Shown: one piece after another, positions 548-47,080 of the stretch
Layout of the letters: every line of letters starts with the position of its first letter
How positions within the stretch are numbered: the stretch's first letter is position 1
IMG/VR virus record: IMGVR_UViG_3300021401_000008
Coordinates: 1 to 50,686 of that record
Strand: one strand, 5' to 3'
Length of the DNA: 50,686 nucleotides
Source of the DNA: a virus
Translations under genes and position numbers: made by a program
The notes under the pieces: model-generated
What the model was told of the DNA's origin: nothing
Database searches by the model: none
What the model saw: the letters and a program-made list of their open reading frames with translations, nothing else

Positions 548-3353
548 CTACCACCTCGCTAACTCCATTCTGTTTTCTAACTACTACCAACTTGGCATCT
601 GCTAGCTCAGAAAGAATTGCTGGATTGTGTGTAGTTAAAAGTATCGTGCCGAACCTCCCCACTATCTTCTTCAATCCTCTCGCAAAACTTCTAGCTGAGA
701 TAGCATCCAACCCATCTCCTGGCTCATCCAGAATTAATAGATTCGTCTTTGGTGCTGTCGACCGGACGGCGAAGGACGTAATCAACGAAGCCATCTTCAT
801 TTCACCTTCCGACTGATCCTTTACTTCCTCTCCACCATGAGCGTTAATTACTCTCACATCCGTCATACCTTCTTCGTCTACTGCAAAGCGAACCTGAATC
901 TCTCCTTGTGCAAATAACTCAGAATACTCTGCAGCTGATTGATTCAACTCTGGACAGATCTGTTCATTGAGATAAGCTGGTAGCCCGTTTCTCTGAAAGA
1001 CTGTCTGTGCATATTTCAGCACCTTGAGCCATTTACCGATCTTGTTCTTCTGTTGTGTTAGCTTCCCACCCCGTTCCTGGCAAGCTACTACTTTCTTCAA
1101 CAGACTGTCGATCAGCTGCTGTTGCTTTTGGTATTGCTCCCATTCGAATCTGAGCTTCTCCAACTCACTACTCAGCTTGGCTATCTTTATCTCCAGCTCT
1201 TCGTTCTCTTGCCATGCCTCTTTCTTCTCTTCTAGCTTACCAGCAGCCTCTGTAATTTTCATGTCCATCTCAGCGTAGCCATCCAGTTGCTTTCTCAAAG
1301 CTCTGGCAGCTTCCTCGATTGCTGGAATAGCAATCTTCATGAGCTTCTCGTCTATGATCTGCTCACAGACTGGACAAGTCCCTTCTAGCTTCTTGAATTT
1401 TTCTATTCTGTTCTCCAGTACCTTCAGCCGCTCACTCGTCGTTGATCTCTTCTTGATCAAATCCTTCTCAGCGGCATCGTACTTCCCAATCTCTCTTTCC
1501 AGCTTTGCAAACTGAGTCTCAGCTTCTGATTCCCAGACTCGTAACTCTTCTTTCTTCTCCAAAAGCTGAGCTTTCGTACGTTTGAAAATAACCTTCACAT
1601 CTCGGTTTACAGCCAAAATCTGTTTGGCATCGGATATTGTTGAAAGTAGGTTCTTTTCCTCTGTAGAAATCGATTGCAGCTTGTCACAAACTAACTCATA
1701 TCTCCGTTCGAAGTCCGATTTCTGGTCCCGTATCGCTTTCTCTGCCCGTTCAAACCGTTCCAGGTTCTGTAACTTGGCCAGAAACCCTTTCCGCTGTGAT
1801 TCAGTTCCCGTCAACATCAAATGGGAACTGGCTTGATCTATGTAAATTGCATTCGCTAGCGTCTCCCAAGTGTAGCCAGTTACCTGCTCAATCAGCTTCT
1901 GTGTGCTCTCTGGTCTGTTACCGGACTCGACTACTTCCCCACCCACTTTCAGCTTTAGCTCTTTTGGCTGACGTGCTCGTCTCAGATAACATTCTCTGTC
2001 TTGAGCATCCCTGAACCAAAGCCGCACATCACATAGCTCACCTTTTTTCGTACCTCTTCTCATCCAACCATCGTGCTTCTGTTGCTTGAAAGTCTGTCCA
2101 GAATGAGCGACAGCTATTGGCTGGAGATAACTAGATTTACCGGCACCGTTTGACCTTCCTTTCCAATCTCTATTCTCTCCAGCCACAACGCAGAGTCCCG
2201 GCTCGAATCTAATGGCAAGCTCTTTGTAACTGAGAAAGTTTCTAGCTTTAATGCTACTGAACTTGAGTTCACCAGACTCCCTCTGTAACCCTCCGACAAG
2301 CGCCAACTGCTCAACGAGATATTTTCTAATGGCTTTTTCATGTGTTCTCAATTCATCCGGCAAAGTTTCTTGTACAAAGACGCGTATCTTTTTCTCGTCT
2401 GGGAAGTCGAGCCGAATTTTGCCAGCTGCTGAGCCACTGCTTTCGATAAATTCAGGTACGACAACAATCTCAGCACCTGCATACTTTCTAACAGCTTCAA
2501 GTCGCGCTTTGTCAAGATTCTCTCTGACATGTTGCACTCCCTCGCAAGGAACCTTGATTCTGATCTTGGCTCCTTGCCAACTCTCTGGCTTCGCTTCTTC
2601 AAATCCTGGCCAACCTGGATCGTACCAACCTGGAATAGTAGAACGAATTCTCTTGAGCGTTTTCTTCTCGAAGTCAATCAGGATGTAACCTTTTCTTTGA
2701 TTTGCCTCGCCCCAATCGGTCGCGAACGGGCTACCCACATACCATACCTTCTCCGCCACTCTTTGCTGAAAGTGGATGTGCCCGCCGACACAATAAAGGT
2801 ACCTTCCTGGATACAAATCTTCAGGTGATACCACGTCCTTCGATTGCGAGGAAGACAATACATTGTAACGCGCCGATTGCAAGTCTGAGTGAAAAATAAG
2901 TACATCTGTCTCAGGTCTTGTACGTTTTGCCAGGTCATGTGCTTCTCTTTTAAGCAAAATTGGATTGCTGCGAAAAGGAAGGAATGCAACCCGATAGGCC
3001 CCTCCCACTTCCAGGAATCCAGGATCATCGAAAGCTGCTGCTCCGCCTTTACGAAGTACTGGAAGCCAGTTTTGTTTGTCGACATGCATTCCCACCCTAT
3101 CGTGATTGCCTAGATCAATACCGACAAGCAATCCAGCGTTCTCCCACTTACCAATCGTACGCAACCAGAAATTTACAACCCGGACGTCTACTGGATTGTA
3201 TGCGTGTTTCAAATCTCCGGCTAGTACGATAACCTTAAACCCATACTTGCTTTGTAGCTGTAGAATTTCTTCAGCTGCTTGCTTACAGAGATCTAGATTC
3301 TCGTAGTCTGCTTGCCAATCTGATGTGACTAGAACCTTCACAAACTCTCCCAA
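540..3353 (-). CDS. sbcCD: SbcD-SbcC (Mre11-Rad50) nuclease fused in one polypeptide
   Basis: This 937-residue protein joins two proteins that are usually separate. Residues about 5-230 are an Mre11/SbcD calcineurin-like phosphoesterase: motif I SDWQ (11-14), GDLKH (46-50), GNHD (82-85), H155 and GHIH (191-194). Residues about 362-937 are an SbcC/Rad50 SMC-like ATPase: Walker A GRSNGAGKSS (399-408), two long coiled-coil arms around a CPVC zinc hook (660-663), signature QSEGE (847-851), Walker B LLILDEP (872-878) and an H-loop at H909. Such complexes trim DNA ends and open hairpins during recombination; T4 gp47/gp46 are the separate phage counterparts. Motif I has Gln where the usual DxH has His, which may alter metal binding. 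It overlaps the neighbouring gene by 16 bases. Confidence 0.93.
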   Translation of the reverse strand: MGEFVKVLVTSDWQADYENLDLCKQAAEEILQLQSKYGFKVIVLAGDLKHAYNPVDVRVVNFWLRTIGKWENAGLLVGIDLGNHDRVGMHVDKQNWLPVLRKGGAAAFDDPGFLEVGGAYRVAFLPFRSNPILLKREAHDLAKRTRPETDVLIFHSDLQSARYNVLSSSQSKDVVSPEDLYPGRYLYCVGGHIHFQQRVAEKVWYVGSPFATDWGEANQRKGYILIDFEKKTLKRIRSTIPGWYDPGWPGFEEAKPESWQGAKIRIKVPCEGVQHVRENLDKARLEAVRKYAGAEIVVVPEFIESSGSAAGKIRLDFPDEKKIRVFVQETLPDELRTHEKAIRKYLVEQLALVGGLQRESGELKFSSIKARNFLSYKELAIRFEPGLCVVAGENRDWKGRSNGAGKSSYLQPIAVAHSGQTFKQQKHDGWMRRGTKKGELCDVRLWFRDAQDRECYLRRARQPKELKLKVGGEVVESGNRPESTQKLIEQVTGYTWETLANAIYIDQASSHLMLTGTESQRKGFLAKLQNLERFERAEKAIRDQKSDFERRYELVCDKLQSISTEEKNLLSTISDAKQILAVNRDVKVIFKRTKAQLLEKKEELRVWESEAETQFAKLEREIGKYDAAEKDLIKKRSTTSERLKVLENRIEKFKKLEGTCPVCEQIIDEKLMKIAIPAIEEAARALRKQLDGYAEMDMKITEAAGKLEEKKEAWQENEELEIKIAKLSSELEKLRFEWEQYQKQQQLIDSLLKKVVACQERGGKLTQQKNKIGKWLKVLKYAQTVFQRNGLPAYLNEQICPELNQSAAEYSELFAQGEIQVRFAVDEEGMTDVRVINAHGGEEVKDQSEGEMKMASLITSFAVRSTAPKTNLLILDEPGDGLDAISARSFARGLKKIVGRFGTILLTTHNPAILSELADAKLVVVRKQNGVSEVVDG

Positions 3354-3748
3354 TACTCAGTCGCTTCTTCTTTCGTCTTTTTCAAATCCTTCGGCATCAG
3401 CTTCAACTGAATCTCATAGCCCGTTGAATGCCACTGCACGTTTCTTTTTGTCAAAACCTTTGGATGAACGAAGCCACTGAACGTCTCACCATCCACCAAC
3501 TCATTTACAAAAATGATCTCTATCCCATACGAAACTGTCTTCAGCAGTGGGAACCGACTGGGGTACCAACAACTGTGTTGTTTATGCCAGTGAGGATGAC
3601 TGAGAGCATATACTCCTTTTCGCAACCATGCGATCGTTCTGAACTGTGCTCCAACTGCTGGCTTATCTCTGAGCGCTAAAACAAACTGCCCGTCTTCGTA
3701 TAACCAGTAACCGTGGCCCTCAGCATCCTTCATTTTTACTTTAATCAT
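3338..3748 (-). CDS. Hypothetical protein in replication operon
   Basis: This 136-residue protein matches no family I recognise. It is rich in aromatic residues and histidine (HPHWHKQHSCWYP near the middle) and ends in a Lys/Glu-rich helix. I chose the ATG at 3748, which overlaps the clamp-loader stop and has GAGG 9 bases upstream. An in-frame ATG at 3763 would add five residues but lacks a good ribosome site. It lies between the clamp loader and the SbcD-SbcC nuclease and overlaps both, so it is probably co-expressed with replication proteins. Confidence 0.7.
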   Translation of the reverse strand: MIKVKMKDAEGHGYWLYEDGQFVLALRDKPAVGAQFRTIAWLRKGVYALSHPHWHKQHSCWYPSRFPLLKTVSYGIEIIFVNELVDGETFSGFVHPKVLTKRNVQWHSTGYEIQLKLMPKDLKKTKEEATEYWESL

Positions 3749-4769
3749 CGTGCTTGACCTCATCTATGTCATCTGCTATCGGTCCCGCAAAAATCTGGCA
3801 GAGCTCATAAAGTACGGCAACAGTTGCTGGTCCCTGTGTCGCATCCGTGTAGCTATCAACTTGTGCCATTCTACCAATGGCTTTTGCGAATTCTCCGGCG
3901 CGTGGACCCGGTATCGCTCTCTCCAAACATCTTCGCAAGTATCCAGAAACCTGTGCACGAATCCCTCGAAGGTCATCAGCTGTCGCTTCTTTCGTTTCCT
4001 TACGGATGGCATCCCAATCTCCTTTCTCCAATGATCTACAAATTGCCAGCGTGTCTGCTCCAAACCCGATATTCCTTACTGCCTCTTTCGAAGTCTGTCC
4101 AGCTAGATATAACTCCACTGCATTCAAAATCAATCCAGGCGACTGAATCCTTCCTTCCCATAAACTGGCTACCAGCGGCTCAGGTTTTTTCTTTACCTCG
4201 CCTACAAACTTGAAAGCCCTCTTGACCAACTTCAAGATATTGTCAGCCTGGAGCAACTTCAACTGCACCCTCTCACATCTCCTGACAATTGCTGGCAGCA
4301 ATTTATTCTCTTCTGTCGTACCGACAATCCATACCGTCGACTCAGGTGCGTCCTCTAAATATTTGAGCGATAGATTCTGGGCATCTCTGGAAAGTCTCTG
4401 CGCCTCATCTAACATAAAAACATTTCGTCTAGAACCTTCTAACGGTAGATACATCGAACCCTGAGCTATCTTTCTGATCTCATCCACACCGGAATTTTCT
4501 GAGGCGTTGATCTCTCTGATCGAGAAGTCGTTTTTCTTTTCCAGACAAGCGTCGCAAGGCTCACCGAATTCGGCATGTGTACATTGCAATGAGACAGCCA
4601 AAATCCTAGCCACTGATGTTTTGCCCGTACCAGTAGGTCCGACAAATAACCAGGCCGATGGCTCTCTACCACTGCTGTATTGATTTCTGATTGTCGCGAC
4701 CAGCGTGTCTTGCCCAATCAACTGGCTGAGACGTTTAGGACGTAATGTATGGGCTAACGTACGTTTCAT
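3741..4769 (-). CDS. dnaX: DNA polymerase clamp-loader ATPase (DnaX gamma/tau-like)
   Basis: This 342-residue AAA+ protein has Walker A GPTGTGKT (44-51), a zinc module with C63, C72 and C75, Walker B FMLDEAQ (118-124), a sensor-1 segment VGTTEE (149-154) and an SRC-like arginine-finger motif RRCERV (163-168). These mark the DnaX/RFC clamp-loader ATPases, which open the sliding clamp and place it on primed DNA. The expected partner, a sliding clamp, is encoded at 13.4-14.5 kb. No delta or delta-prime subunit is seen, so this protein may form a homo-oligomer, as phage loaders can, or use host subunits. AGGG lies about 9 bases before the ATG. Confidence 0.92.
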   Translation of the reverse strand: MKRTLAHTLRPKRLSQLIGQDTLVATIRNQYSSGREPSAWLFVGPTGTGKTSVARILAVSLQCTHAEFGEPCDACLEKKNDFSIREINASENSGVDEIRKIAQGSMYLPLEGSRRNVFMLDEAQRLSRDAQNLSLKYLEDAPESTVWIVGTTEENKLLPAIVRRCERVQLKLLQADNILKLVKRAFKFVGEVKKKPEPLVASLWEGRIQSPGLILNAVELYLAGQTSKEAVRNIGFGADTLAICRSLEKGDWDAIRKETKEATADDLRGIRAQVSGYLRRCLERAIPGPRAGEFAKAIGRMAQVDSYTDATQGPATVAVLYELCQIFAGPIADDIDEVKHDD

Positions 4770-4786
4770 CGTGCTATCCCTTCGTG

Positions 4787-5449
4787 CTATTTTCTTCTAA
4801 GATACCCACCCGGATTCCAAGTCATCAAAAACTTCTCACGTCTTCGATCTACCTCGAACTGTTCATTATACAAACTAAGAAACTCTTTTACCGCCCAACC
4901 TGGTCCATAACCGAAATTTAGAGGAGCGTCCACGTTCGTGTCCTCCACAATCAAATACTGACCTGATGTCACCAACCTCCAATACATCATCAACTCTTGA
5001 ATCACATGTGGCGTACTATGATCGTCATCTAGAATGACCATCACTTTCTTTCCATCTGTCCTGTTCTGGATCTCGTCACGTATCAATGGATTGACTGAAT
5101 CCCCGACGACGTAAGTAATCCGATCGTGTGGTGGCACAATCCCCAGCCGATTGTCAATGTCGACTGTAATGATCTGCCCGTTGCCAATCAAATCCAAAAC
5201 ATGAGCCATGAACAATGCTGAGGCTCCTGATGCTGTACCCATCTCTACTATCAAATCTGGCTTACACTCCCACAGAATTTCCTGGTAGATCCAGAGATCG
5301 AGCGGATTCTTCTGAATGAGATACTTACCACAATAGTTCGCATCCAACTGCACGACAACTTGATCGTCACCTTCTCCAATTCTCATCTGGAGCTGGCCCT
5401 TCGAGTACCAGAGACGATGAAAAGAATCGATCAACTCTTTCTCTTCCAT
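4787..5449 (-). CDS. CmcI-like SAM-dependent O-methyltransferase
   Basis: This 220-residue protein resembles the CmcI / rhamnosyl O-methyltransferase family. A Rossmann SAM-binding loop EMGTASGAS (69-77) is followed by VDID (96-99), an acidic metal-site stretch ILDDDHS (139-145) and a second acidic pair VEDTN (168-172). Relatives methylate small molecules or sugars, and no DNA substrate is known. In a phage it could modify a nucleotide, a glycan or a host metabolite; the substrate cannot be read from sequence. The ATG at 5449 shares one base with the upstream stop (TGATG) and has GGAG 6 bases before it. A GTG at 5452 is less likely. Confidence 0.8.
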   Translation of the reverse strand: MEEKELIDSFHRLWYSKGQLQMRIGEGDDQVVVQLDANYCGKYLIQKNPLDLWIYQEILWECKPDLIVEMGTASGASALFMAHVLDLIGNGQIITVDIDNRLGIVPPHDRITYVVGDSVNPLIRDEIQNRTDGKKVMVILDDDHSTPHVIQELMMYWRLVTSGQYLIVEDTNVDAPLNFGYGPGWAVKEFLSLYNEQFEVDRRREKFLMTWNPGGYLRRK

Positions 5450-5574
5450 CACTTACTCCCATGCTTTCTGTGCCACCAAACCAGCCTGTGTACCCCTTCG
5501 ACAAAACCAAACGACAGCACCAGAGCCAATACTGGTGCTAGTATCTTATGATTCAGAATCCAAGTCTCGATCAT
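5449..5574 (-). CDS. 41-residue single-span membrane protein
   Basis: This small frame opens directly after the (TNNGG) array and ends in a TGATG junction with the methyltransferase gene. The protein starts MIETWILNHK, has one hydrophobic helix (about residues 11-28, LAPVLALVLSFGFVEGVH) and ends in a basic tail (HRKHGSK), which suggests a cytoplasmic C-terminus. The last unit of the array, TGGGG, followed by ATAA, supplies the ribosome site. The tight coupling to the next gene and its position as the first product after the array support it being real. The function is unknown. Confidence 0.65.
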   Translation of the reverse strand: MIETWILNHKILAPVLALVLSFGFVEGVHRLVWWHRKHGSK

Positions 5575-5578
5575 TTAT

Positions 5579-5658
5579 CCCCACCTTACCCCACACTAGC
5601 AGACCTAACCCAACCACACCCGAGCTTACCAAACCTTGCCACACCTTACCTTGCCAAA
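5579..5658 (-). repeat. Degenerate pentanucleotide array 1, (TNNGG)16
   Basis: On the coding strand the gap between two genes reads stop codon, G, sixteen 5-base units of the form TNNGG, ATAA, then ATG. The sixteen units fill 80 bases with no phase slip. Departures are CAAGG (twice), TAAGC, TCTGC and TAGTG, each with one change. It is the shortest of three such arrays in the window (see 13225-13369 and 18722-18836). All three begin GTTTGG directly after a stop codon and end at the ribosome site of the next gene. The role is unknown. Confidence 0.93.
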
Positions 5659-5659
5659 C

Positions 5660-5923
5660 TCATTGCCCAGCTGCTATTACGGTCAACACCTGGGAAAAGG
5701 CTTCTGTCACTGACATCAACAGCCGACCGAATGTTCTCGCCTTGAACCGGAACTCTTCCTTCTGATCTTCTGGCAGTGAGTCGACGTAATCACGCAGCTG
5801 CTTCTCTGCTATCTGCATCGACATCTCACCAGAAGCCACGGCCACCCACAATTTCAAAACTACTTCCTGCTGTGACGTCGTCTTTTCAACTGCGATCTTG
5901 TCCTTGTCTGCTTTCGTTGCCAT
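5660..5923 (-). CDS. Hypothetical protein, 87 residues
   Basis: This is a mostly helical, charged protein with a Lys/Asp-rich N-terminus (MATKADKDKIAVEKTTSQQE) and a hydrophobic C-terminal helix (about residues 66-87, LLMSVTEAFSQVLTVIAAG). I do not recognise a family. It lies downstream of RecA and directly upstream of repeat array 1, whose first base follows its stop codon. An AAGGAG-like ribosome site precedes the ATG. It is probably transcribed with the recombination genes. Confidence 0.7.
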   Translation of the reverse strand: MATKADKDKIAVEKTTSQQEVVLKLWVAVASGEMSMQIAEKQLRDYVDSLPEDQKEEFRFKARTFGRLLMSVTEAFSQVLTVIAAGQ

Positions 5924-5936
5924 CTCATTCTCCTTT

Positions 5937-6242
5937 TTATTTACACATCAACTCTATAATCGCTGTCCGTAGCTGTTTCATTCTTCTTTCATACATCGAA
6001 AGAATCTCGTCTGTCATTCTCCAAGCGATCTCTCTTTCAGCGATCGTCAACTCCAAGCCGTTGAGCCACCTCTTCAAAACCAGCGTCGACGCCTCTGGAA
6101 TGAAGTTTCGGTCTTTTATGACGTGAAGACGAAGTACGCTATCGATCTTCCTCTTCAAAGCACGCTCGGTCAAAGCTTTGCTGGAAAATTGTGTGCGCGA
6201 TGGTACTCCACTATTTGAACGTTCTACTTGCTGCTCGGCCAT
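5937..6242 (-). CDS. Hypothetical protein, 101 residues
   Basis: This predicted helical protein has basic and acidic patches (LKRKIDSVLRLHVIKDR in the middle, MYERRMKQLRTAIIEL near the C-terminus) and matches no family I know. Its ATG is 3 bases beyond the end of recA, and it is followed at 13 bases by the 87-residue gene. The position next to RecA suggests a recombination accessory protein, but nothing in the sequence proves that. Confidence 0.7.
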   Translation of the reverse strand: MAEQQVERSNSGVPSRTQFSSKALTERALKRKIDSVLRLHVIKDRNFIPEASTLVLKRWLNGLELTIAEREIAWRMTDEILSMYERRMKQLRTAIIELMCK

Positions 6243-6245
6243 TCC

Positions 6246-7169
6246 TTACTCCCCTTCTGTCTTTACATCTTCGGCGTCGATGTATTTTATCTTGCCGATG
6301 AAATAGAGCTTGTAACCGATCCTGAGACCCTCTCTCGATCCAGCACCGGCTTTGTTCTTCCAGTTCGATATCGTACCTTTGATACCGATCTGTTCTCCAC
6401 CTTTCAAAATCTTCTTCGATTTTCTACGCATCCGGACTCGAACAGCTGCGTAGAGTCTGACAGCATTACCACCCGGCGTGTACTCTGGATTTCCCCAAGC
6501 ACCCGGAGCTACTCGCAACTGATTGATGAACATCATCATCACATTGTAGTTGGCTACGAAAGCTACCCACCGCCTGAGCAGCTGAGAAAGAAATGATGCT
6601 AACGAAACCTTCGTTCTCATATTCTGTTCTTGAATCCCAGCTGCCGCTTCCTCTTCTGTCAGCATGGCAGCTATAGAATCTATACAACAGAATATCCGCC
6701 CCTCTGGATTCTCTTTACCCAGCTTTTTGATTAGCTCCTCTACTTCCATGAGCAGCTCTTCTGCGGTGTGCTGTCTCTGTTCGGTCTCTTTCCCAAACGT
6801 TCCGATCTGTGGCTGGAAAAGATAAACTTCGTCTGGATTCAAACCGAGTGTCAATGCCCACGTTGGATCCCAACTATCTTCCAAGTCTACCCAGATTACT
6901 TTTGCTCCATCTCGTTGAGCTATCCCAGCGATCTTTTTCATCTGGGCTGTTTTGCCCTGAGACTCGAAGCCGGATGTCTCGAACATCTTTCCGTAGGGAA
7001 TGCCCATCTCTTCTGATCCATAGATACTGTTTAGTCTGGGACTCCCGGTATCTAGCCAGTACTTGACCTGTTTCTCGGTCGTGAAATGCTTCAGCTTTTT
7101 TCTGATAAGAGCTACCTCGTCCGCTGGTGAGAGCGGACGAGGCGTCTTGGTTGATTGTTGTTGTTTCAT
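6246..7169 (-). CDS. recA: RecA/UvsX-type recombinase
   Basis: This 307-residue protein has the RecA ATPase core: Walker A GFESQGKT (67-74), the catalytic-glutamate segment VDLED (94-98), Walker B CCIDSI (161-166), the NQLR motif (216-219) and a loop-2-like GNPEYTPGGNAVR segment (226-238). RecA polymerises on single-stranded DNA and drives homologous pairing. It is shorter than bacterial RecA and lacks the long C-terminal domain, which is usual in phages. Its ATG lies inside an ATGA overlap with a short reading frame that continues the SSB gene in another frame. SSB and a UvsY-like gene lie just upstream in transcription order, giving a T4-like recombination set. Confidence 0.93.
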   Translation of the reverse strand: MKQQQSTKTPRPLSPADEVALIRKKLKHFTTEKQVKYWLDTGSPRLNSIYGSEEMGIPYGKMFETSGFESQGKTAQMKKIAGIAQRDGAKVIWVDLEDSWDPTWALTLGLNPDEVYLFQPQIGTFGKETEQRQHTAEELLMEVEELIKKLGKENPEGRIFCCIDSIAAMLTEEEAAAGIQEQNMRTKVSLASFLSQLLRRWVAFVANYNVMMMFINQLRVAPGAWGNPEYTPGGNAVRLYAAVRVRMRRKSKKILKGGEQIGIKGTISNWKNKAGAGSREGLRIGYKLYFIGKIKYIDAEDVKTEGE

Positions 7170-7277
7170 TTCGTATCTTCTTCGTTCTCTTTCAACATCT
7201 CGTCTGTGACCCCTCCATCCCCTTCGACGTCTTCTCCCACACCCAATGGATCGTTATCAACGATCTCACCGGGACTA
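7166..7277 (-). CDS. Possible +1-frame extension of the SSB acidic tail, or a small gene
   Basis: Directly past the SSB stop, the +1 frame stays open and reads SPGEIVDNDPLGVGEDVEGD and then GGVTDEMLKENEEDTK before a TGA that forms an ATGA overlap with recA. The acidic composition matches an SSB-type C-terminal tail, and the ATGA overlap is the usual junction between real genes here. No good start with a ribosome site lies between 7277 and the end, except an ATG 11 bases after GGAGGGG that would give only ten residues. A +1 frameshift at the end of SSB, an assembly indel, or a degraded gene could each explain it. Confidence 0.4.
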
Positions 7278-8315
7278 CTCGTCGTCGTCTTCTGGGGCTG
7301 GCTTGGGCTTTTTCTTTGACGTTGGAGCAGGCTCTTCTTCGTCTTCTTCAACGACTGGCTTTTTCTTTGCTGGCTTTTTTGGCGCTTCTTCTTCCTCTTC
7401 GGTTGACTCACTCTCTTCCTCCTCTTCAGCTGGCTTCGGTTTCTTTTTCTTCGGTGGAGCTTCTTCCTCTTCCTCTAACTCAGGGATGTCCTCTTCTGTC
7501 TCGCCGGCTTCTTCTTCCTCTTCTTCAACTACCGGCTTTTTCTTGGCTGGTTTTTTCGGTGGAGCTTCTTCCTCTTCGGTCTCCCCCTCTGTTGTCTCTT
7601 CTTCTGTTGTCTCCTCCTCTTCCTCGACTACTGGTTTCTTTGGCTTCTTTGGTTTGACTTCTTCTTCCTCAGCAGGCTCTTCTGGTTCGTCTGGCTCCTG
7701 CTCATGTCCGTAGTACTCGGCCTTCATGACAGCTTCGTCATAAGCCTTGAGCACTTCCTTGAATGGCTTGAGCTTGGCCAGCAACTTCTCTGGGACTTCC
7801 GACTTCTCGTCGTCTCGATCGATGTCGCCGTACTTCGTGGTCGTCATCGTCGTGCCTTTACGAGAGATCGTTAGGTTATATCCCTTCTTTGGATCGCTGA
7901 CGTCTCGTCTCGACATCACACCCAACAGCTTGTTGGCTACCCCACCCGACATCTCCCAAAGCGTTGGCCCGACCCACTTGCCATCCATGACGTAAATGAT
8001 CTGGACGGCAAAGCACTCTTTCGCTGCTAGGGCTTCTGCTGCCGCCTTGTGTGGGGATTTAGGTGACTTCTCCAACTTCGGAATCTGCTCATCACACAAC
8101 CAGCATTCGCCCTCTCCACTCATCTTCTTTCCACAACGAAGATAAGCCTTCCGGGCGCCGACGTTCGAATGCATCCTGTACTCGATGTACTCGGCCTTCT
8201 CTGTCCCACGTGCGTTCGGCATGACTCGAAACGTCGTATCGCCTTCCGGCAACTTGAATCGTTTCCCTGCCGATCGCTCGTTTAGTTTTGCCTTTGCTGC
8301 TTCCTTTTTATCCAT
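7275..8315 (-). CDS. ssb: gp32-like single-stranded DNA-binding protein with long acidic tail
   Basis: The protein has 346 residues. Residues about 1-205 form a compact domain with a Cys cluster (CGKKMSGEGECWLCDEQ, about 63-79) comparable to the zinc site of T4 gp32, followed by an OB-type region. From about residue 207 to the end is a low-complexity tail of alternating Glu runs and Lys/Pro blocks (for example EEEEAPPKKPAKKKPVV, present in near-copies). Acidic SSB tails recruit replication and repair proteins; this one, at about 140 residues, is far longer than usual. It lies next to UvsY-like, RecA and polymerase genes. Function is inferred from the Cys cluster, tail and position rather than overall similarity. 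Confidence 0.78.
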   Translation of the reverse strand: MDKKEAAKAKLNERSAGKRFKLPEGDTTFRVMPNARGTEKAEYIEYRMHSNVGARKAYLRCGKKMSGEGECWLCDEQIPKLEKSPKSPHKAAAEALAAKECFAVQIIYVMDGKWVGPTLWEMSGGVANKLLGVMSRRDVSDPKKGYNLTISRKGTTMTTTKYGDIDRDDEKSEVPEKLLAKLKPFKEVLKAYDEAVMKAEYYGHEQEPDEPEEPAEEEEVKPKKPKKPVVEEEEETTEEETTEGETEEEEAPPKKPAKKKPVVEEEEEEAGETEEDIPELEEEEEAPPKKKKPKPAEEEEESESTEEEEEAPKKPAKKKPVVEEDEEEPAPTSKKKPKPAPEDDDE

Positions 8316-8336
8316 CTTGCTTTTTTCCTTTCGTGA

Positions 8337-8555
8337 TTAGTTACTACGAAATTTTTTCCCACTTTGTGTTGTTTGATCCGCCTCCATCTCAGCTTCCAAC
8401 GCTTCAATCATCTCCTTCTTCCGAGTCAAATAAAACTCGATAAGTTCTTTCGCATGCTTAGTTACTGTCCCCAACAAAACTTGAGCCATGCAACCAATAG
8501 CCGTAAGACTGGTGACTGTTATAAAGAAAATTGCAAACCAATCTACCACACTCAT
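8337..8555 (-). CDS. Small membrane protein, 72 residues
   Basis: One clear transmembrane helix near the N-terminus (about residues 6-29, WFAIFFITVTSLTAIGCMAQ and onward) is followed by a charged amphipathic segment (EFYLTRKKEMIEALEAEMEA) and a basic end. The ATG is in a 4-base ATGA overlap with the UvsY-like gene, so the two are probably coupled in translation. I do not recognise the family. Membrane anchoring beside SSB and recombination genes is odd, and the function is unknown. Confidence 0.72.
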   Translation of the reverse strand: MSVVDWFAIFFITVTSLTAIGCMAQVLLGTVTKHAKELIEFYLTRKKEMIEALEAEMEADQTTQSGKKFRSN

Positions 8556-9049
8556 TCCTCTACCTCTTCTTTCCCCATCGATCTTTTCAAACGTTCCCGC
8601 TTGTTCTTCATCTGCTCGACTGTATGCTGACCACTAAAATTATCTTGCATGAATGCGTACTGAGCTAACACTTTGATTGAACTACGTCTGTGCTCATAGG
8701 CATCCAACAGCCCCTTCGCCCATTCTTCTATTCTCTTCGCCGTTGCCAACTCTTCTACTGCTGTCCGTAGTTCTGGGACTCGTTCGACCAACTCACTGAT
8801 CATTCGTTCTGTCGTTCCCTTTTTCCCTTTGTGCTTGAATCTCATCTTCAAACTGTAGTCTGTTCTCAGATTGTCAGCGTGCATCTCAGCTTCTTGTCGG
8901 ATGCGCATCTTCTTGATTCGATAAGTGACGGCAGCCATATAACATTTCGCTTGCTCAAGAGCCGCTAACTCTGTCTCTTCTTGTGCAAAAGCCAGATGAT
9001 CTAGCAGCTCATGCACGTCTACTTCGCCGATCAATGGTTTCTTTGGCAT
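8552..9049 (-). CDS. UvsY-like recombination mediator (candidate)
   Basis: This 165-residue, almost wholly helical protein has the layout of phage UvsY-like proteins. An N-terminal acidic helix with HELLDHLAFAQEETEL is followed by a long basic helix (YRIKKMRIRQEAEM), a short variable linker, and a closing pair of helices (RIEEWAKGLLDAYEHRRSSI) like the part of UvsY that ends in an 'AL.a...R...Ik' pattern. UvsY helps load the recombinase on SSB-coated DNA. Encoding next to SSB and RecA supports the call. Overall sequence similarity is low, so this rests on layout and context. Confidence 0.5.
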   Translation of the reverse strand: MPKKPLIGEVDVHELLDHLAFAQEETELAALEQAKCYMAAVTYRIKKMRIRQEAEMHADNLRTDYSLKMRFKHKGKKGTTERMISELVERVPELRTAVEELATAKRIEEWAKGLLDAYEHRRSSIKVLAQYAFMQDNFSGQHTVEQMKNKRERLKRSMGKEEVEE

Positions 9050-9058
9050 GACAATTGA

Positions 9059-9949
9059 TTATACAACTTCCTTTTTCATTTCCTTTTGAAGTTTAATCTG
9101 AAACTGTTGGTTCTTCTGGCACCACTTCTCGACAAACTCTTCTGGTGGCTCACCAGCATACTCGACCATCACTCCCAGTCTGAATCCGGCTTTAGCTTCA
9201 GATTTCAACGGAACGACCCACTTTACTTCTGGCCACCATTTAGCTACGTAGACCAGAATCTCTTTCTCCATCAGCTGATTAAATTGCTTGTACGCTTCTA
9301 CCAGCTTCAATAGCTTGACGAAAACATATAGCGAATCATGCACTTCCATCGATGGCCGCTGGAGCAAATTGTATGTCTGTGGCTTAATCCCGATGATCGC
9401 CATCGCAATCAACATCAACTGATGAGCTGTTCCCTGAATTGGGCTGTTAACTGCTTGGTTTGCCCAGAATGTTGTTCTCGTCTCATCTCCAGCAATGGCA
9501 ATCTCTCTGACGAAACCAAACAAAGTTTCCACATAGGCATTGTCTTGTGCAAACTGATGCTGGTGCTCGATGAATTCTGCTACTCCAGAGAACCTCTTGA
9601 AATAGGCTTTCCACAGCTTGGCTACGTCTTCCTTCGACATGTTGAATGGCTCACCACGTTCCAAAGCCTCATTCAGCAAATGGTAGTACAGCGATTCTTC
9701 TGTTAACCCGTAAATGATTCCGAAGTGTAGCCCTTTGATTGCTGTTCTGAGAGGCCTGTCTTTCATGATCTTTGCAATCGGCTGCCCGGTTAACTCATGT
9801 CCGACTGATGCGTGGATATCTTCTCCCGATTGGATTAGCTCGATCAGCCTCTTGTCTTTTGACATCTGAGCCAGCACACGAATCTCTAACTGGCTGTGAT
9901 CTGCTCCAAGATAGACATCAAGATCGCCGAATTTGCTGACTAGACTCAT
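9059..9949 (-). CDS. polA: Family A DNA polymerase, C-terminal part (palm/fingers) of a split enzyme
   Basis: This 296-residue protein is only the catalytic end of a PolA-type polymerase. It starts just before motif A: GADHSQLEIR (15-24, catalytic D17). It then has the finger helix motif B with R68, K72, F76 and Y80 (RTAIKGLHFGIIYG), NSPIQGTA (168-175) and motif C EVHDS (202-206, catalytic D205). The exonuclease, thumb and first palm strands are missing and are encoded 1.1 kb upstream at 11044-12924. The ATG is in an ATGA overlap with the preceding gene, so the split is an established gene arrangement, not a chance stop. Motif C has Ser where bacterial PolA has Glu (HDE). Confidence 0.93.
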   Translation of the reverse strand: MSLVSKFGDLDVYLGADHSQLEIRVLAQMSKDKRLIELIQSGEDIHASVGHELTGQPIAKIMKDRPLRTAIKGLHFGIIYGLTEESLYYHLLNEALERGEPFNMSKEDVAKLWKAYFKRFSGVAEFIEHQHQFAQDNAYVETLFGFVREIAIAGDETRTTFWANQAVNSPIQGTAHQLMLIAMAIIGIKPQTYNLLQRPSMEVHDSLYVFVKLLKLVEAYKQFNQLMEKEILVYVAKWWPEVKWVVPLKSEAKAGFRLGVMVEYAGEPPEEFVEKWCQKNQQFQIKLQKEMKKEVV

Positions 9950-10149
9950 CTTGGATGTCCTGGAAAAGGATGAAACATTCCGGTCTGATTCTTTTCTTCT
10001 CTAGCTTTCTTTTCGGCTTCTTTCTTTTTACTGAATGGTCCAACTACATAATCATACTTTGGAAAATCTTCTGGCTCAGGATCTTTACTAGAAGAAAAAA
10101 CTTCATGATTCTCATATTGACCTTTAAGAACCCCTACCCAAAAACTCAT
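9946..10149 (-). CDS. Hypothetical protein, 67 residues
   Basis: This small protein lies between the two polymerase parts. Overlaps of four bases (ATGA) on both sides fix its ends. It begins MSFWVGVLKGQYENHEVF, has an aromatic strand-rich first half and a Lys/Glu helix (KKKEAEKKAREEKNQ), and ends FHPFPGHPR. I recognise no family. Confidence 0.72.
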   Translation of the reverse strand: MSFWVGVLKGQYENHEVFSSSKDPEPEDFPKYDYVVGPFSKKKEAEKKAREEKNQTGMFHPFPGHPR

Positions 10150-10628
10150 TTTACTTCTCCATCCAACAAACTAATCGCATCTTCAAACGTATCTGGCTGA
10201 CTCCCACCCGGCCAACTTCTATGCCCAAGTCTTTCTGTAAACTCTTGTACCGACTCGATGGGTAAATGAAAAGCCGCACACATCGCTGTATATCGATCGT
10301 GCGCTACCCGGGATATCTCTCTATCTGGATGACAATAAGCAACCACCTCCAACGAATGCATCAGATGGCTGTAGAAATGTTGGGTACAGAATTCTAATTC
10401 TTTAGCTGTTGGACCTTTCTCCAAAATCAGCTCCGGCTCTTTCGTCATAAACTCTCTGACGTTATCTGGATTCCCTGGCTTGAACGCTAGCCCGCGAAGC
10501 CACCGTGTGATTGTCTTGACTCCCGGCGTACAGTGCGTATCTGGCCCACGCAGCCCAAGAATCAACGTCGACTGCATCCGAATTGGAATCTGGACCAACC
10601 AATCTTGCAACACGCTAGTATTTCTCAT
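10146..10628 (-). CDS. Conserved phage-type hypothetical protein
   Basis: This 160-residue protein contains QIPIRMQSTLILGLRGPDTH near the N-terminus and a helical segment EFCTQHFYSHLMHSLEVVAY in the second half, followed by HPDREISRVAHDRY. From memory, proteins with this layout (an LRG.D segment, then an HWYSH.MHA.EVVAY.HP-like helix) occur in other phages next to nucleotide or replication genes, with no known function. The His-rich helix could form a metal site, but that is only a suggestion. ATGA overlaps at both ends place it in the operon between dCTP deaminase and the polymerase C-part. Confidence 0.75.
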   Translation of the reverse strand: MRNTSVLQDWLVQIPIRMQSTLILGLRGPDTHCTPGVKTITRWLRGLAFKPGNPDNVREFMTKEPELILEKGPTAKELEFCTQHFYSHLMHSLEVVAYCHPDREISRVAHDRYTAMCAAFHLPIESVQEFTERLGHRSWPGGSQPDTFEDAISLLDGEVK

Positions 10629-11047
10629 AGCTTTGACTCCGTAATCCCTCTCTGATCTGTGTACATCCCTCTGTACGGCTCACAAGGACTGGTCGTCTTG
10701 GCGAAGATCAAATGAGCAAAGCGCTCTCCAATCGCCTCTTGTGGTGGAACCATAAACGAGAGCATCTCCAGCGTCAAATTTCCCTTGAACCCGGCATCTA
10801 CGATCGTTGGTGGAAGAAAGAATCCTTTCCTTGCCCACGAGCTTCTCAACTCGACAAAGGCCATCAAATCATCTGGGAGCTCAAGTACTTCTCTTGTACA
10901 ACCCAATGAGAATATACCGACCATCGGCTTAACTTCGTCCAAAATCAAGTCGATCCCATTCTGTTGAAACTGATCATCTCTAACTGGAATTATTTTTAGC
11001 TTTCCGGTCTCGATGTACCACTTCAGATCTCGTCCACTGAGGATCAT
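10625..11047 (-). CDS. dcd: dCTP deaminase / dUTPase-fold protein
   Basis: This 140-residue protein begins MILSGRDLKWYI, like Dcd enzymes, and carries the conserved ELRSSWARKG (about 66-75) and IVDAGFKGNLTLE (about 82-94) motifs of the dCTP deaminase/dUTPase trimer family. These enzymes make dUMP or dUTP from dCTP or clear dUTP, feeding thymidylate synthesis. It is shorter than typical Dcd (about 175-195 residues), ending soon after the YRGMYTDQ segment. The ATG at 11047 is in an ATGA overlap with the polymerase N-part stop and has GGAG 9-10 bases upstream. It is the first of three genes between the two polymerase parts. Confidence 0.87.
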   Translation of the reverse strand: MILSGRDLKWYIETGKLKIIPVRDDQFQQNGIDLILDEVKPMVGIFSLGCTREVLELPDDLMAFVELRSSWARKGFFLPPTIVDAGFKGNLTLEMLSFMVPPQEAIGERFAHLIFAKTTSPCEPYRGMYTDQRGITESKL

Positions 11048-12924
11048 TGCTGTTCTCTCCATTCTTTATATAGGTCTCGCCACCTCAAGTCTGATACCAA
11101 TAAACATTCTATTTCTTCAGCACCGTGGATGTTTTGCAAATTTACAATGCCTTTTGACTTATCCGAAGGCTCTCCTTTCTTTTTCACCTTCTCTCCACCC
11201 GATCTGAGCCGACAAGTGATCGTACCAGTTAGCCACCACTTCGTCCGGACCCGTCCACCGTGTAATGTAGCCGATCGACGGTAAGCATCGAGATACGTCG
11301 ATTTCTTTTTTGCTATCTTCCTAAACTCGGTCAACCGTTTTGGAAATGGATGGAAGTCTGCTAGTAAGGCCATCGTCTCTTTGTTTGTTGATCTAGGAAA
11401 ATCTTTCTTCCACTCGGCATCCAGATGCTTGCCCAGCTTCAATTCGTCGTAAATGATCTTGACTACCTGTTGTGGTGAATTTGGATTGAACTTATATCCA
11501 GCCAGCTTCTGTAACTCTTTTTTCAGCGAGGCTATCTTGATCGGTAGCCAGGTATCTAGTAGATCGGCATGCTGAAAGTCTAGTAACGGACCACGCTCCA
11601 ACTCCATCTTCGCCAGCACTGGAGCTACTAAAATGAGAACTTTTAGCAGCGCCTCGTTTACCTTCCCTTTGTTGCTCCTCTGAATTCTCTTCGTCAAATC
11701 ACAGTCCGCGCCATTGTAGACCCGGATGATCTTCATCGGCACGGTCCAGAAGTTTACCAGCCCGGTCTTCTCGTCCTTGTAATGATCTAGAATATCTTTG
11801 TACCCGGCGAACTCTCTGAACCTGATATCAGCTGTCGCTTCTAACCCGAAGGCTCTACGACCGGAGAATCTCAAATACTCCGAAAGCATCGTATCGTGTA
11901 CGAAGCCTTTGACCTTAACACCCCATAGCTTCTCTAACTTCCAGACATCGTAGACTCCGTTCTGAAATGCTTTTTTGATCTTCGGATCTGTCAGAAGATC
12001 TGATACGAAATGAAATTTTGCTTGCTGTTCGTCTGGTGTATTTTTCAGATCGTGATGGTCAAAGAAAACTCCTCTTGATTTTCCTTTCTCCCATGAAAAG
12101 CCAACATACACAATTACATTCTTTCCTTCAGCGTTTGTTCCATCCTCTATATCTACAGATACAACAATTCCTTTTGCAGCTGCCACCCTTATCGGCTCAT
12201 CAAGCCCAGTCTTCAAAGCACGAGCACCCAATGTCACATACTCTTGACTTTGAATGTAGGAAAATTTCCCAGTCGCACCTTTTGCCTTCTCTACTGCTAT
12301 CGCCAACGCTTCCCGGAACTCCTTAATCTTTGATCTCGGCGCACCTCGTAAGAAGTAGCTGGGATGATAAGTAAGAATGACCCAAGCCTTCAGCTTTTCT
12401 GAATAGAAAGTCTTCTGATCCTTCCGGTACTCGCCTTTGAGAAGAGCTTTCGCAGCCACCTGTCCGAAGACAATATGTACTTTAGTCTGACCTTGCACCT
12501 TCTCCAAAGCTTCTTCTGTATAGATCGAGCAAGCGTGTAGCTCTTCCTTCGTTGGATTATGGAACTCCCACTGCTCGAACTCGTTCTCTGAGACTGTAGC
12601 GCAGCGGACTACATTCTGTATATCGCACATCTCTCTCGTTAACCCAACCGACGCTGCATGCTCCCAAAGAAACTTACCAGCTGGACCCACTAGTTCTTTC
12701 CCTAATCTGTTTTCTTCTGAGCCTGGATTCTGAGCCCAGATCATGATTGACTTACCCTGTAGCTTGTCCAGATTCTTGATCTTCTTCAGCCCTTTGATCT
12801 TATCCAAAGGACAGAAACCACAGCCACGATTCTGATCTTTCCTTGGCTTTCGCTCACCCTTTTCGGGCACAGGATCGAAAGTCTTTTTGTTCTCGTCGAA
12901 CTGCAACACGTTTTGAAATTTCAT
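11044..12924 (-). CDS. polA: Family A DNA polymerase, N-terminal part: UDG-like and 3'-5' exonuclease domains
   Basis: This 626-residue protein has three parts. Residues about 30-215 are a family-4/5 uracil-DNA-glycosylase-like domain with four candidate iron-sulphur Cys (C35, C38, C108, C132), an AQNPGSEE motif (64-71) and HPSY (187-190). Residues about 250-415 are a DEDDy 3'-5' exonuclease (D258, E260, N322/D326, D344, Y403/D407). Residues about 425-626 are thumb and the start of the palm, with a TGT..CRL segment (566-573) and NLQNI (595-599). It stops before motif A, which begins the separate gene at 9059-9949. UDG-PolA fusion is known from SPO1-like phages; the split is unusual. The ATG is in an ATGA overlap. 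Confidence 0.92.
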   Translation of the reverse strand: MKFQNVLQFDENKKTFDPVPEKGERKPRKDQNRGCGFCPLDKIKGLKKIKNLDKLQGKSIMIWAQNPGSEENRLGKELVGPAGKFLWEHAASVGLTREMCDIQNVVRCATVSENEFEQWEFHNPTKEELHACSIYTEEALEKVQGQTKVHIVFGQVAAKALLKGEYRKDQKTFYSEKLKAWVILTYHPSYFLRGAPRSKIKEFREALAIAVEKAKGATGKFSYIQSQEYVTLGARALKTGLDEPIRVAAAKGIVVSVDIEDGTNAEGKNVIVYVGFSWEKGKSRGVFFDHHDLKNTPDEQQAKFHFVSDLLTDPKIKKAFQNGVYDVWKLEKLWGVKVKGFVHDTMLSEYLRFSGRRAFGLEATADIRFREFAGYKDILDHYKDEKTGLVNFWTVPMKIIRVYNGADCDLTKRIQRSNKGKVNEALLKVLILVAPVLAKMELERGPLLDFQHADLLDTWLPIKIASLKKELQKLAGYKFNPNSPQQVVKIIYDELKLGKHLDAEWKKDFPRSTNKETMALLADFHPFPKRLTEFRKIAKKKSTYLDAYRRSATLHGGRVRTKWWLTGTITCRLRSGGEKVKKKGEPSDKSKGIVNLQNIHGAEEIECLLVSDLRWRDLYKEWREQQ

Positions 12925-13217
12925 GGAACTCGCCAAACAACATCCTCTATAGTTCCTAGCCACTCAATTGCTTTTGCTTCCGTCATCGTTCTTCCAAGTG
13001 GACCGTAAAAATCCGTATCATGTACGACGCACCAAAGTTCTTTAGGGCTCAGACCTCCACGTTCTGCTAAGCGTTCTAGAGTCTGAGAATGATTATGCTG
13101 AGCTTGCTCTTCATGTCCCTTAAGCAACTCACGTGGAAACGAAACCGGATACGGTGTGCGATTTCGACGAGCTGCGTGAAACTCTTCAGTTTGTCCAAAT
13201 AGAATTGGATAACTCAT
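12921..13217 (-). CDS. Hypothetical protein, 98 residues, first gene after array 2
   Basis: The protein begins MSYPILFGQTEEFHAARRNR and has a central ERLAERGGLSPKELWCVVHD segment, a helix-turn pattern seen in many small phage proteins, and a C-terminal LGRTMTEAKAIEWL segment. I recognise no named family. Its translation begins 7 bases after the last unit of the 29-unit (TNNGG) array, and its stop overlaps the polymerase N-part by four bases (ATGA). Whatever the array controls would therefore also affect the polymerase. Confidence 0.72.
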   Translation of the reverse strand: MSYPILFGQTEEFHAARRNRTPYPVSFPRELLKGHEEQAQHNHSQTLERLAERGGLSPKELWCVVHDTDFYGPLGRTMTEAKAIEWLGTIEDVVWRVP

Positions 13218-13224
13218 TTCTTCA

Positions 13225-13369
13225 CCCTACCTCACCCGACCTTAGCCTACCAGACATTACATTACCAGACCTCACCTCGCCTCACCCTACCTTACCAGAC
13301 CATGCCGCAGCTCACCAGACATCACCGCACCATACATCACCTTAGCTTACCAAACCCTACCATGCCAAA
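13225..13369 (-). repeat. Degenerate pentanucleotide array 2, (TNNGG)29
   Basis: This is the largest of the three arrays: 29 units of TNNGG on the coding strand fill 145 bases with no insertion or deletion. It is preceded by a single G after the clamp gene stop and followed by TGAAGAA and an ATG. Exceptions carry one change each: C at position 1 (CATGG twice, CGAGG), T at position 4 (TGATG twice, TAATG twice) or C at position 5 (TAAGC, TGAGC, TAGGC). The last unit, TAGGG, serves as ribosome site for the 98-residue gene. On the + strand it reads as a CCNNA repeat. Confidence 0.95.
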
Positions 13370-13370
13370 C

Positions 13371-14468
13371 TTATTTACCAATCTGTCTCGCCACCATCAT
13401 CTCCACCCCACCACCGGATAGAAGATAAGGTGTATTCTTCTGTTCGTCCACTCGTACTTTGATCCACTCACCATTCTGGGCCATGTAATCAACAACTGCT
13501 AAAGCTAACTCCAGTGGCCATCTGATCGTTCCTTCTACTGTCCCGTTCTCAATCTCCATCTGCTCTTCGAACTTTCCCTGCTGAACTCGTACTGATGCTT
13601 TGACTACTCCTTGATCGATCGCCATCTCCACAATCCAGTCTTCCCTCTTCACTCCACCCAAGTAGCTGGCCAATCTGGCTAGCATCTTTGAGAGCTTCTC
13701 GGCTGGCAGTCTGGTGAGTAGTGGCCATGTCCGTCCTTTCTGTATCTTCTCCACTACGTCCTTCTTTGGAAACGATTTCTGAGCTACTGCCGAAATCGTT
13801 CCTTCTATGAATCCACAACCACAATCCAGCATGACTCGATCGTTCTCCACTCCAACTGCTTGCACCAGACTGTCACCTAATAGCGGAATGATGCCGACTG
13901 GAAATGGAATTCTCAATGCATCTTCTTGGTCTCGTACTCCAACGAATAGTGAAATCAGATTCGTCGATAGCACCAACTTGCCACCGATGTAGACACAATT
14001 TAGATGCGGCAACGCTGGATCGGCTGTCGAACAGTGATTCGAAGCCAGTAGCAGTTTTCTCAAGCCCTCTGATAGCTTTATCTCTTTCGACTTGTCTCGA
14101 TCTCGCCAGACTCCGTAGCCACTCACTGGCTCTTTTCTCATCGAGAAGTCTGCCTTACGACTGCCCTGTCTGATCAACCATTTATCTTCTGTCAAAGCCA
14201 TCTTGAAATTGCCCTTCCAGCTTTTTCCGGCTTGAATGTAGGCTGTAAATAATCCTTTGTCGACAAAAAATGGTCCCGGCGTCAATGTATCGGTCAAAGG
14301 AACCCGAACCACACCGGTCACCGTCGATGAAAGTGACATCTCGATTGCATTCTTTTTTGTCAGTACTCGGACAAAGTCTGATGAAGGAATCCCGGCTCGT
14401 TGTGGAACAAGACTCAGCACATCCACAGCTGTGATCATTGCTTTCTTATCGGCTTCTACCCAGCTCAT
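13371..14468 (-). CDS. dnaN: DNA polymerase sliding clamp (beta-clamp-like)
   Basis: This 365-residue protein is read as a beta-type sliding clamp. It has three similar beta-rich segments, a GKLVLSTNLISLFVGV strand pair in the middle, and a C-terminus (YLLSGGGVEMMVAR) like the end of DnaN, where the last strand closes the ring interface. The length equals that of bacterial DnaN. Overall similarity is low, as expected for phage clamps. The clamp loader at 3.7-4.8 kb is its likely partner. The ATG at 14468 is in an ATGA overlap with the 59-residue gene; a longer in-frame start at 14543 would overlap that gene heavily and is rejected. Confidence 0.75.
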   Translation of the reverse strand: MSWVEADKKAMITAVDVLSLVPQRAGIPSSDFVRVLTKKNAIEMSLSSTVTGVVRVPLTDTLTPGPFFVDKGLFTAYIQAGKSWKGNFKMALTEDKWLIRQGSRKADFSMRKEPVSGYGVWRDRDKSKEIKLSEGLRKLLLASNHCSTADPALPHLNCVYIGGKLVLSTNLISLFVGVRDQEDALRIPFPVGIIPLLGDSLVQAVGVENDRVMLDCGCGFIEGTISAVAQKSFPKKDVVEKIQKGRTWPLLTRLPAEKLSKMLARLASYLGGVKREDWIVEMAIDQGVVKASVRVQQGKFEEQMEIENGTVEGTIRWPLELALAVVDYMAQNGEWIKVRVDEQKNTPYLLSGGGVEMMVARQIGK

Positions 14469-14644
14469 CGCTTCCTTCTCAGGACATAATCTATAAACAA
14501 AGAATTCACAAATTTTGGAATCCAGATAGCTTTTCCTTCGCACTGTATCAACTTAAAGAAAATCTCCCCACGGATTCCAAACATTCTAACCAAGGCCTCT
14601 TTAGAATGTTCCAAGTCGCTTATCTCTAATTGTTTTCTTCTCAT
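14465..14644 (-). CDS. Hypothetical protein, 59 residues
   Basis: ATGA overlaps at both ends (14644 with the gene upstream, 14465 with the clamp) define this gene. The protein begins MRRKQLEISDLEHSKEALVR and ends LFIDYVLRRKR. It is basic, with a central aromatic segment (GIRGEIFFKLIQCEG). No family is recognised. Tight coupling to the clamp suggests co-translation. Confidence 0.68.
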   Translation of the reverse strand: MRRKQLEISDLEHSKEALVRMFGIRGEIFFKLIQCEGKAIWIPKFVNSLFIDYVLRRKR

Positions 14645-14850
14645 GCTGATTGCTCCACTAACTCCACGTAAGGCTTTCCCGACGGTGGAGCCCATCCAGT
14701 AGCGAAGAAAACTTTTCCATGCCATCGGATCTTGGCTTTCATCGTCTGTCCCCACATAAGAAAAGCATCTGGCATCTCAGCTGATAAGTCTTCTATCATA
14801 TCTTTCTGTGTTACCAGCAAATTCCAATCGCTGACTGACATCTTCATCAT
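14641..14850 (-). CDS. Hypothetical protein, 69 residues
   Basis: The start at 14850 overlaps the GTP cyclohydrolase stop (ATGATGA), with GGAG 3-4 bases before the first ATG. A second ATG at 14847 may be used instead. The protein has DWNLLVTQKDMIEDLSAEMP and a compact Gly/Pro/Trp-rich end (FFATGWAPPSGKPYVELVE). No family is recognised. It sits between the DNA-modification pair and the clamp. Confidence 0.68.
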   Translation of the reverse strand: MMKMSVSDWNLLVTQKDMIEDLSAEMPDAFLMWGQTMKAKIRWHGKVFFATGWAPPSGKPYVELVEQSA

Positions 14851-15491
14851 CGTTCTCCTCTCACAGCTGCCAGAAACTCAGCCCGTGCTGTTGCTTCTTT
14901 GAAAGCTCCCTCCAACGCCGTCGTCGTTGTCCAAGCTTCTTTCTTCACTCCACGCATCTCCATGCACAAATGACGACCACGAATTAAACAAGCGGCGCCT
15001 TTCGGCTGGAGACCTTTCTGGAGTAACTGAGCGATCTCTGCTGTCGTATCTTCCTGGAGAGCAGGCTTCTTGGCTACTAACTCAGCCAATCGAGCCAGCT
15101 TAGACAACCCCAACACTTTTTTCTTTGGGATGTAAGCGATCCAAATCCGCATCATCACGGGCAAAAAATGATGTGGGCACATCGACCACAACTGGATCGG
15201 ACCCACTGTGATCATCTCATCTGATTTAGCCGGAAATGTTTTGCTAAGGATTTCGGTTAGTTTGGTTCCATCATCAAACAGCCCATCGAAAATTTCTGCA
15301 TAGGCTCTAGCTACTCTTTCTGGTGTATCTTCGAAGTTCGGACCGTAACGTCTAACCTTCCCATGAGAGACTCGCTGCAAACTTTGTAAGATCTCAGCGA
15401 TACTTGCGGCTACTTCCCTTTTGAACATAAATACAGCATTCTCTCGTACTTGCTCTTCGTTCTTTCTCTTCCAATGATTCTTCGTTATCAC
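14847..15491 (-). CDS. folE: GTP cyclohydrolase I
   Basis: This 214-residue protein has the full FolE core: the SMCPHHFLP zinc/catalytic motif (103-111, with C105, H107 and H108), IPKKKVLGLSKL (121-132) and the second zinc Cys with RGV (C176 in HLCMEMRGV) followed by TTTT. FolE turns GTP into dihydroneopterin triphosphate, the first step of folate and of preQ0/7-deazaguanine synthesis. Its overlap with a DpdA-like gene favours the DNA-modification role. I chose GTG at 15491 because it forms a GTGA overlap with the upstream stop, has GGAG 8 bases before it, and gives the normal family length. QueD, QueE and QueC are not in this window. Confidence 0.93.
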   Translation of the reverse strand: MITKNHWKRKNEEQVRENAVFMFKREVAASIAEILQSLQRVSHGKVRRYGPNFEDTPERVARAYAEIFDGLFDDGTKLTEILSKTFPAKSDEMITVGPIQLWSMCPHHFLPVMMRIWIAYIPKKKVLGLSKLARLAELVAKKPALQEDTTAEIAQLLQKGLQPKGAACLIRGRHLCMEMRGVKKEAWTTTTALEGAFKEATARAEFLAAVRGER

Positions 15492-28466: not shown

Positions 28467-28534
28467 CTGCTTGGACCTTTCTATTCTGCTTCTTTTTAGG
28501 AGCGCGCGTTTGAGGCCCGAACGACCTCGAAGGT

Positions 28535-28562: not shown

Positions 28563-28572
28563 GCGAAATCTT

Positions 28573-29154: not shown

Positions 29155-29156
29155 AC

Positions 29157-47040: not shown

Positions 47041-47080
47041 TTGAACAGCCTCCCATCGTCCTATTATAAACTATTTCTAC

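Follow-up and report, generated by a model that had tools for sequence, protein, structure and literature searches.

Tandem YNNGG pentamers at replication-gene junctions of a phage as probable guide-RNA arrays of the VIPR kind

An array fitted exactly between two genes

In the phage genome of IMG/VR record IMGVR_UViG_3300021401_000008 (the window, 50,686 nucleotides, to which positions refer unless another sequence is named), an 85-base gap between two minus-strand genes is filled entirely by a chain of pentamers, which raises the question of what such an array is for and why it is built so precisely into a gene junction. Read on the coding strand, the gap consists of a single G (5659), 80 nucleotides forming 16 pentamers (5658-5579) and the tetranucleotide ATAA (5578-5575), and it is bounded exactly by the TGA of an 87-residue frame and the ATG of a 41-residue frame (Table 1). 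The layout given in the first-pass annotation, in which stop codon, G, sixteen units, four bases and start codon follow one another with no base to spare, was recovered exactly on re-reading, but the strict TNNGG unit proposed there was not: the unit reads YNNGG around a GGY core, 11 of the 16 copies being TNNGG and 2 CNNGG, while the other 3 (TAAGC, TCTGC and TAGTG) each deviate by one base. Such a run is not a product of chance, as the top-scoring stretch of 16 units in the contig has 13 exact YNNGG units, compared with 4-6 in 25 shuffles generated by a dinucleotide (Markov) model.

Also borne out is the earlier suggestion that the last unit doubles as the ribosome site, since the last units of the window arrays overlap the Shine-Dalgarno position. 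As had been described, the array leads into the 41-residue peptide, in which a hydrophobic stretch is recognized by eye and which has a weak homolog (31% identity) in the relative G002, and further into the methyltransferase gene and a DnaX-like clamp loader (E 9e-26).

Table 1. Positions of the arrays and of other features in the window.
Feature	Position	Strand	Description
Array-free junction	3338-3353	-	141-aa ORF / SbcCD overlap, GAGTTTG-TGAAGG
141-aa protein	3338-3763
Methyltransferase gene	4787-5452	-	RMNT_CmcI, E 6e-45
41-aa hydrophobic peptide	5449-5574	-	Starts directly after array 1; overlaps methyltransferase gene start
Array 1	5579-5658	-	16 pentamers YNNGG, 13 exact
87-aa ORF	5660-5923	-	Upstream of array 1; conserved in G001-G004
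Family A polymerase, C-terminal ORF	9059-9949
Family A polymerase, N-terminal ORF	11044-12963		UDG-like domain
Array 2	13225-13369	-	29 pentamers, 22 exact; clamp-like gene (13371-14543) / 98-aa ORF (12921-13217)
FolE and DpdA-like genes	14847-16564		Adjoining
Array 3	18722-18836	-	23 pentamers, 18 exact; primase-like gene (18838-19794) / 88-aa ORF (18448-18714)

Being tandem and non-coding, the array could in principle be a functionless simple repeat, left by replication slippage or introduced during assembly. The units are, however, too diverse for slippage, with 11 of the 16 in array 1 being distinct and Tandem Repeats Finder returning a score of only 39 (period 10, 62% matches), and the same design is seen again in contigs and samples independent of one another, with the GG strand being the coding strand throughout the window family. 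This recurrence refutes slippage or artefact, to which we assign a negligible probability. Within the window itself, the array does occur at three sites, as first noted, the two sister arrays sharing the stop-G-TTTGG opening of array 1 and each extending to the ribosome site of the gene that follows.

Turnover among relatives and the case for control in cis

Four relatives collinear with the replication region were found in IMG/VR, G001 (L003, 55 kb), G002 (L004, 21 kb), G003 (L005, 29 kb) and G004 (L170, 131 kb). Four arrays are present in G001, the longest of about 50 units, and two in G002, whereas G003 and G004 have none, yet retain the clamp, polymerase, RecA, clamp loader and SbcCD genes. 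After the clamp gene, an array is found in the window, G001 and G002 alike, but differs among them in length and NN content, with the NN bases agreeing at 23 of 58 positions between the window and G001 and at 11 of 20 between the window and G002. At the SbcCD junction, which is array-free in the window, G001 has an array of about 250 nt between GAGTTTGG and TGAGG. Comparison of these junctions indicates that arrays appear and disappear as complete blocks whose borders fall precisely at the gene junctions, and the differences in NN content and length, together with the absence from G003 and G004, characterize the arrays as optional cargo with a fast turnover rather than as a fixed cis element or a slippage product.

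These comparisons bear directly on the role first proposed for the array, namely that its recurrence at a third site speaks for control of the operon and against a local accident. The second half of that argument holds, as arrays of this design are found at a number of junctions, both in relatives and in phages unrelated to the window, and always lie on the coding strand; the first half is not supported, because relatives that keep the flanking genes without the array, one of the observations named in advance as speaking against a cis role, were found in G003 and G004, and because NN content and length vary. Control in cis is therefore probably either the wrong reading or a secondary one, although some effect on the next gene, whose ribosome site the last unit also forms, may exist. 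In its favor, every array runs exactly from stop to start on the coding strand and overlaps a ribosome site with its last unit, so that an mRNA element modulating the next gene might be envisaged as a series of two-quartet G-quadruplexes, as the target of a TRAP-like ring protein or as a means of burying the ribosome site. Apart from the relatives that manage without it, such an element, which we regard as improbable, is difficult to reconcile with lengths ranging from 10 to about 50 units. G-quadruplexes or a plain cis structure were rejected, as GG alone would suffice for a quadruplex and the T or C found at position 1 in 218 of 219 units of the window family (the exception being a purine) would be left unexplained, and as the predicted folding of the array is ordinary (z -0.6). 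TRAP binds (G/U)AG triplets, of which about 11 copies spaced by approximately 5 nt make up a conserved site in leader or intercistronic RNA; the window arrays resemble such sites in having trinucleotides at steps of about 5 nt, but differ in the GGY triplet, the 10-50 copies and the variable spacers. No sigma-70-like promoter was found just upstream of an array in the region searched (4700-14700), where promoter counts did not exceed those of shuffles, and the window contains no tRNA and no match to an Rfam family, hammerhead ribozymes included.

Likeness to VIPR guide RNAs

The unit itself points elsewhere. VIPR (Viral Interference Programmable Repeat), described in a preprint of 2026, combines Vipr, a RAMP protein of phages, with guide RNAs (vrRNA) that consist of YNNGG repeats, GGY forming the scaffold and the NN positions reading DNA, each unit leaving out one base (PMC13142463). 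The vrRNAs, of 9-16 units, act in trans by steering a CRISPR-like protein to the DNA of a rival; seven types are distinguished, and the system, whose mechanism is known from this single preprint, is regarded as a possible forerunner of CRISPR (PMC13142463). Tandem YNNGG units with a conserved GGY and a hypervariable NN, the hallmark of vrRNA, are what the window arrays consist of, and the arrays are filed as of the vrRNA kind on the strength of this unit; as the defining Vipr was not found, they are not filed as a full VIPR system.

The likeness is close. In phage SUSP1 (KT454805.2), a gene for a Vipr of about 20 kDa (28474-29061) is accompanied by four YNNGG arrays within 27500-28030 and 29062-29511. 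Compared with the SUSP1 units, the 219 units of the window family show nearly equal base frequencies at each position, the minor TG form included, and the NN entropy is 3.64 bits in both sets; deviating units of the window family mostly retain two of the three GGY bases. The arrays of both phages have YNNGG units, a GGY scaffold with variable NN and minor units such as TGATG, and both are intergenic and on the same strand as the genes. The window arrays differ from those of SUSP1 in running from stop to start within a replication operon, in their 16-29 units (about 50 in G001), in having no conserved hairpin tail and in the absence of a detectable Vipr or Vap homolog. Array 1, with 16 units, lies within the size range described for a vrRNA, and arrays 2 and 3, with 29 and 23, lie above it. 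In two G001 arrays (L159, 14822-14946 and 17301-17550), TTTGG recurs at units 1, 12 and 23 and at units 1, 16 and 31, respectively, and long arrays might be several guides of 11-15 units joined head to tail.

By this analogy, the pentamers in the gap at 5575-5659 are read as a guide-RNA array like those of VIPR, a reading to which we assign a probability of roughly four in five. The operon RNA would contain a chain of GGY triplets with two variable bases between them, and the array RNA would be cut out of the polycistronic mRNA. If it behaves as proposed for VIPR (PMC13142463), the GGY steps would be gripped by successive Vipr subunits of RAMP fold, the NN pairs would jointly read a DNA target as NNxNNxNNx, with one target base skipped per unit, and the complex would sit on a gene of a rival element and block its transcription.

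Independent evidence for the pairing of such arrays with Vipr, and for the skipping rule, comes from other viruses. IMG/VR was scanned by array pattern alone, with one 28-base pattern yielding at least 120 loci. A Vipr homolog is encoded near the array in about 40 of the loci, in unrelated viruses, that the pattern scans brought up, the homologs of the fetched loci sharing a G-loop, AG..G[VLI]GD.RP..GRF. The pattern scan is accordingly a simple route to VIPR loci from DNA alone. When all arrays were matched to the fetched sequences with 0, 1, 2 or 3 bases skipped per unit and compared with arrays of shuffled unit order, only a skip of 1 exceeded the shuffles, with 15 matches, partly redundant, of at least 18/20, whereas its shuffle gave 5 and the other skips 5-8. 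The best of the 1-nt-skip matches is that of array L099 (2776-2850, plus strand), which reads the Vipr G-loop codons of L136, L049, L115 and L183 and passes over the wobble base. The L099 match is antisense to these codons (GDFRPTYGR) in several divergent viruses, and from its sequence this array is apparently a guide against VIPR itself, directed at the motif of Vipr that is most conserved.

Searches for targets of the window family were less productive. Exact 1-nt-skip targets were found neither for array 1 in viral or genome contigs nor for one G002 array in viral contigs, and exact and gapped 1-nt-skip scans combined gave no significant target for arrays of the window family. The best gapped match in the array-free relatives, between a G001 array (L159, 5220-5365) and positions 46773-47660 of G004 (in L176), reaches 18/20; it lies in the gene just before the clamp loader and keeps to the reading frame, the skipped base being the wobble base, but as 20% of shuffles also reach 18/20 it is a lead only. 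The NN composition of the arrays agrees best with codon positions 1-2, a result that guides would allow but that a purine bias of the arrays can also explain.

Guides without a recognizable Vipr

Despite the close agreement of the units, no Vipr, Cas6 or other RAMP protein was found in the window, in G001 and G002 (both fragments) or in the unrelated phage G005, by several profile searches with working controls. These comprised phmmer, iterated HMM searches, hhalign, profile A2 against whole records, the Pfam RAMP and Cas6 families and the G-loop motif. In hhalign against single sequences, the controls scored above 98% and the best ORF of the window family below 10%; the G-loop motif matched 36 of 39 controls and few frames of the window family, which are not RAMP-like. 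SUSP1 vap1, the only vap type searched, has no match in the window, G001, G002 or G005. The 141-aa protein was considered separately: it is present in the array-bearing window, G001 and G002 and absent from G003 and G004, a distribution confounded with phylogeny, and its predicted model, of low confidence (pLDDT 43.5) and mostly of strands, shows no RAMP sign.

The same combination of arrays and missing protein recurs in phages unrelated to the window. In G005 (L043; L185-L190; 105,094 bp), an 18-bp end repeat closes an uninterrupted RecA frame, so that this genome is apparently complete and circular, and three stop-to-start arrays, starting directly after RecA, are also near SbcC-like and clamp-loader genes. 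In the G005 arrays, the first unit is formed by the stop codon (TGAGG, TAAGG). Arrays are further found beside RecA and clamp-loader genes in G012 and beside SbcC/SbcD-like genes in G006, and profile searches detected no recognizable Vipr in either.

As the arrays sit among replication and recombination genes, they might instead be bound, as DNA or RNA, by a phage protein that is dedicated to this task but is not Vipr, perhaps one related to replication or recombination, with NN being neutral. Both the gene neighborhoods in G005, G012 and G006 and the failure to find Vipr in all six array-bearing phages searched would suit such a protein. We nevertheless consider it unlikely, since the unit statistics are practically those of the SUSP1 vrRNAs and the stop-to-start layout is also found in Vipr-bearing loci. 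In fact, two of these, L054 and L056, have tail-less stop-to-start arrays, so the window is set apart by the missing protein and not by its layout. The conserved structured 3' tail of type II vrRNA is absent after the arrays of the window family, where a ribosome site and coding start are found instead, and the median minimum free energy of the 40 nt that follow is -1.95 kcal/mol, compared with -5.4 kcal/mol in Vipr-bearing loci; as L054 and L056 also lack the hairpin, the tail may be specific to certain types.

The guide-array reading is argued for by unit identity with SUSP1, turnover, linkage to Vipr elsewhere, skip-1 decoding and the layout of L054 and L056; counted against it are the missing Vipr or RAMP protein and hairpin tail, the lack of a significant target, arrays exceeding 9-16 units and the reliance on one preprint. 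As no Vipr is detectable in the window or its array-bearing relatives, the protein is probably either supplied in trans, by the host, a prophage or a co-infecting phage, or too divergent to be recognized. The window contig is probably a fragment, with no end repeat and a last ORF that reaches the contig edge, and a Vipr gene may be located outside it. More tentatively, at somewhat short of even odds, several unrelated phages may carry orphan guide arrays of VIPR type in the stop-start junctions of replication genes, the last unit serving as ribosome site, and depend either on a Vipr encoded elsewhere, in the host, in a resident prophage or in a competitor, or on an unrecognized RAMP protein.

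Virus-borne guide arrays without an effector are familiar from CRISPR mini-arrays, which occur in phages without cas genes; the window arrays are alike in this respect, but have neither palindromic repeats nor contiguous spacers. Effector-less guide arrays in replication operons of uncultivated phages suggest that guides and effector are separable, as are mini-CRISPR arrays and cas; alternatively, arrays without Vipr suggest that further Vipr types are still to be discovered.

The phage itself has no close cultured counterpart: no megablast match was obtained in the phage collection, and for its polymerase and RecA only distant similarities were found. A host search in genome contigs with the polymerase alignment gave one remote match. 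Two separate ORFs encode the family A polymerase, a split found in the window as in G001-G004, and between them lie two small genes, one of them for a dCTP deaminase. Identity to G002 is 99% for the C-terminal ORF (L162, 4593-5510) and 83% for the N-terminal ORF, which points to recent recombination between the two phages. Finally, the adjoining genes for a GTP cyclohydrolase (FolE, by Pfam) and a DpdA-like protein (recognized by eye, with no Pfam hit) suggest 7-deazaguanine modification of the phage DNA.
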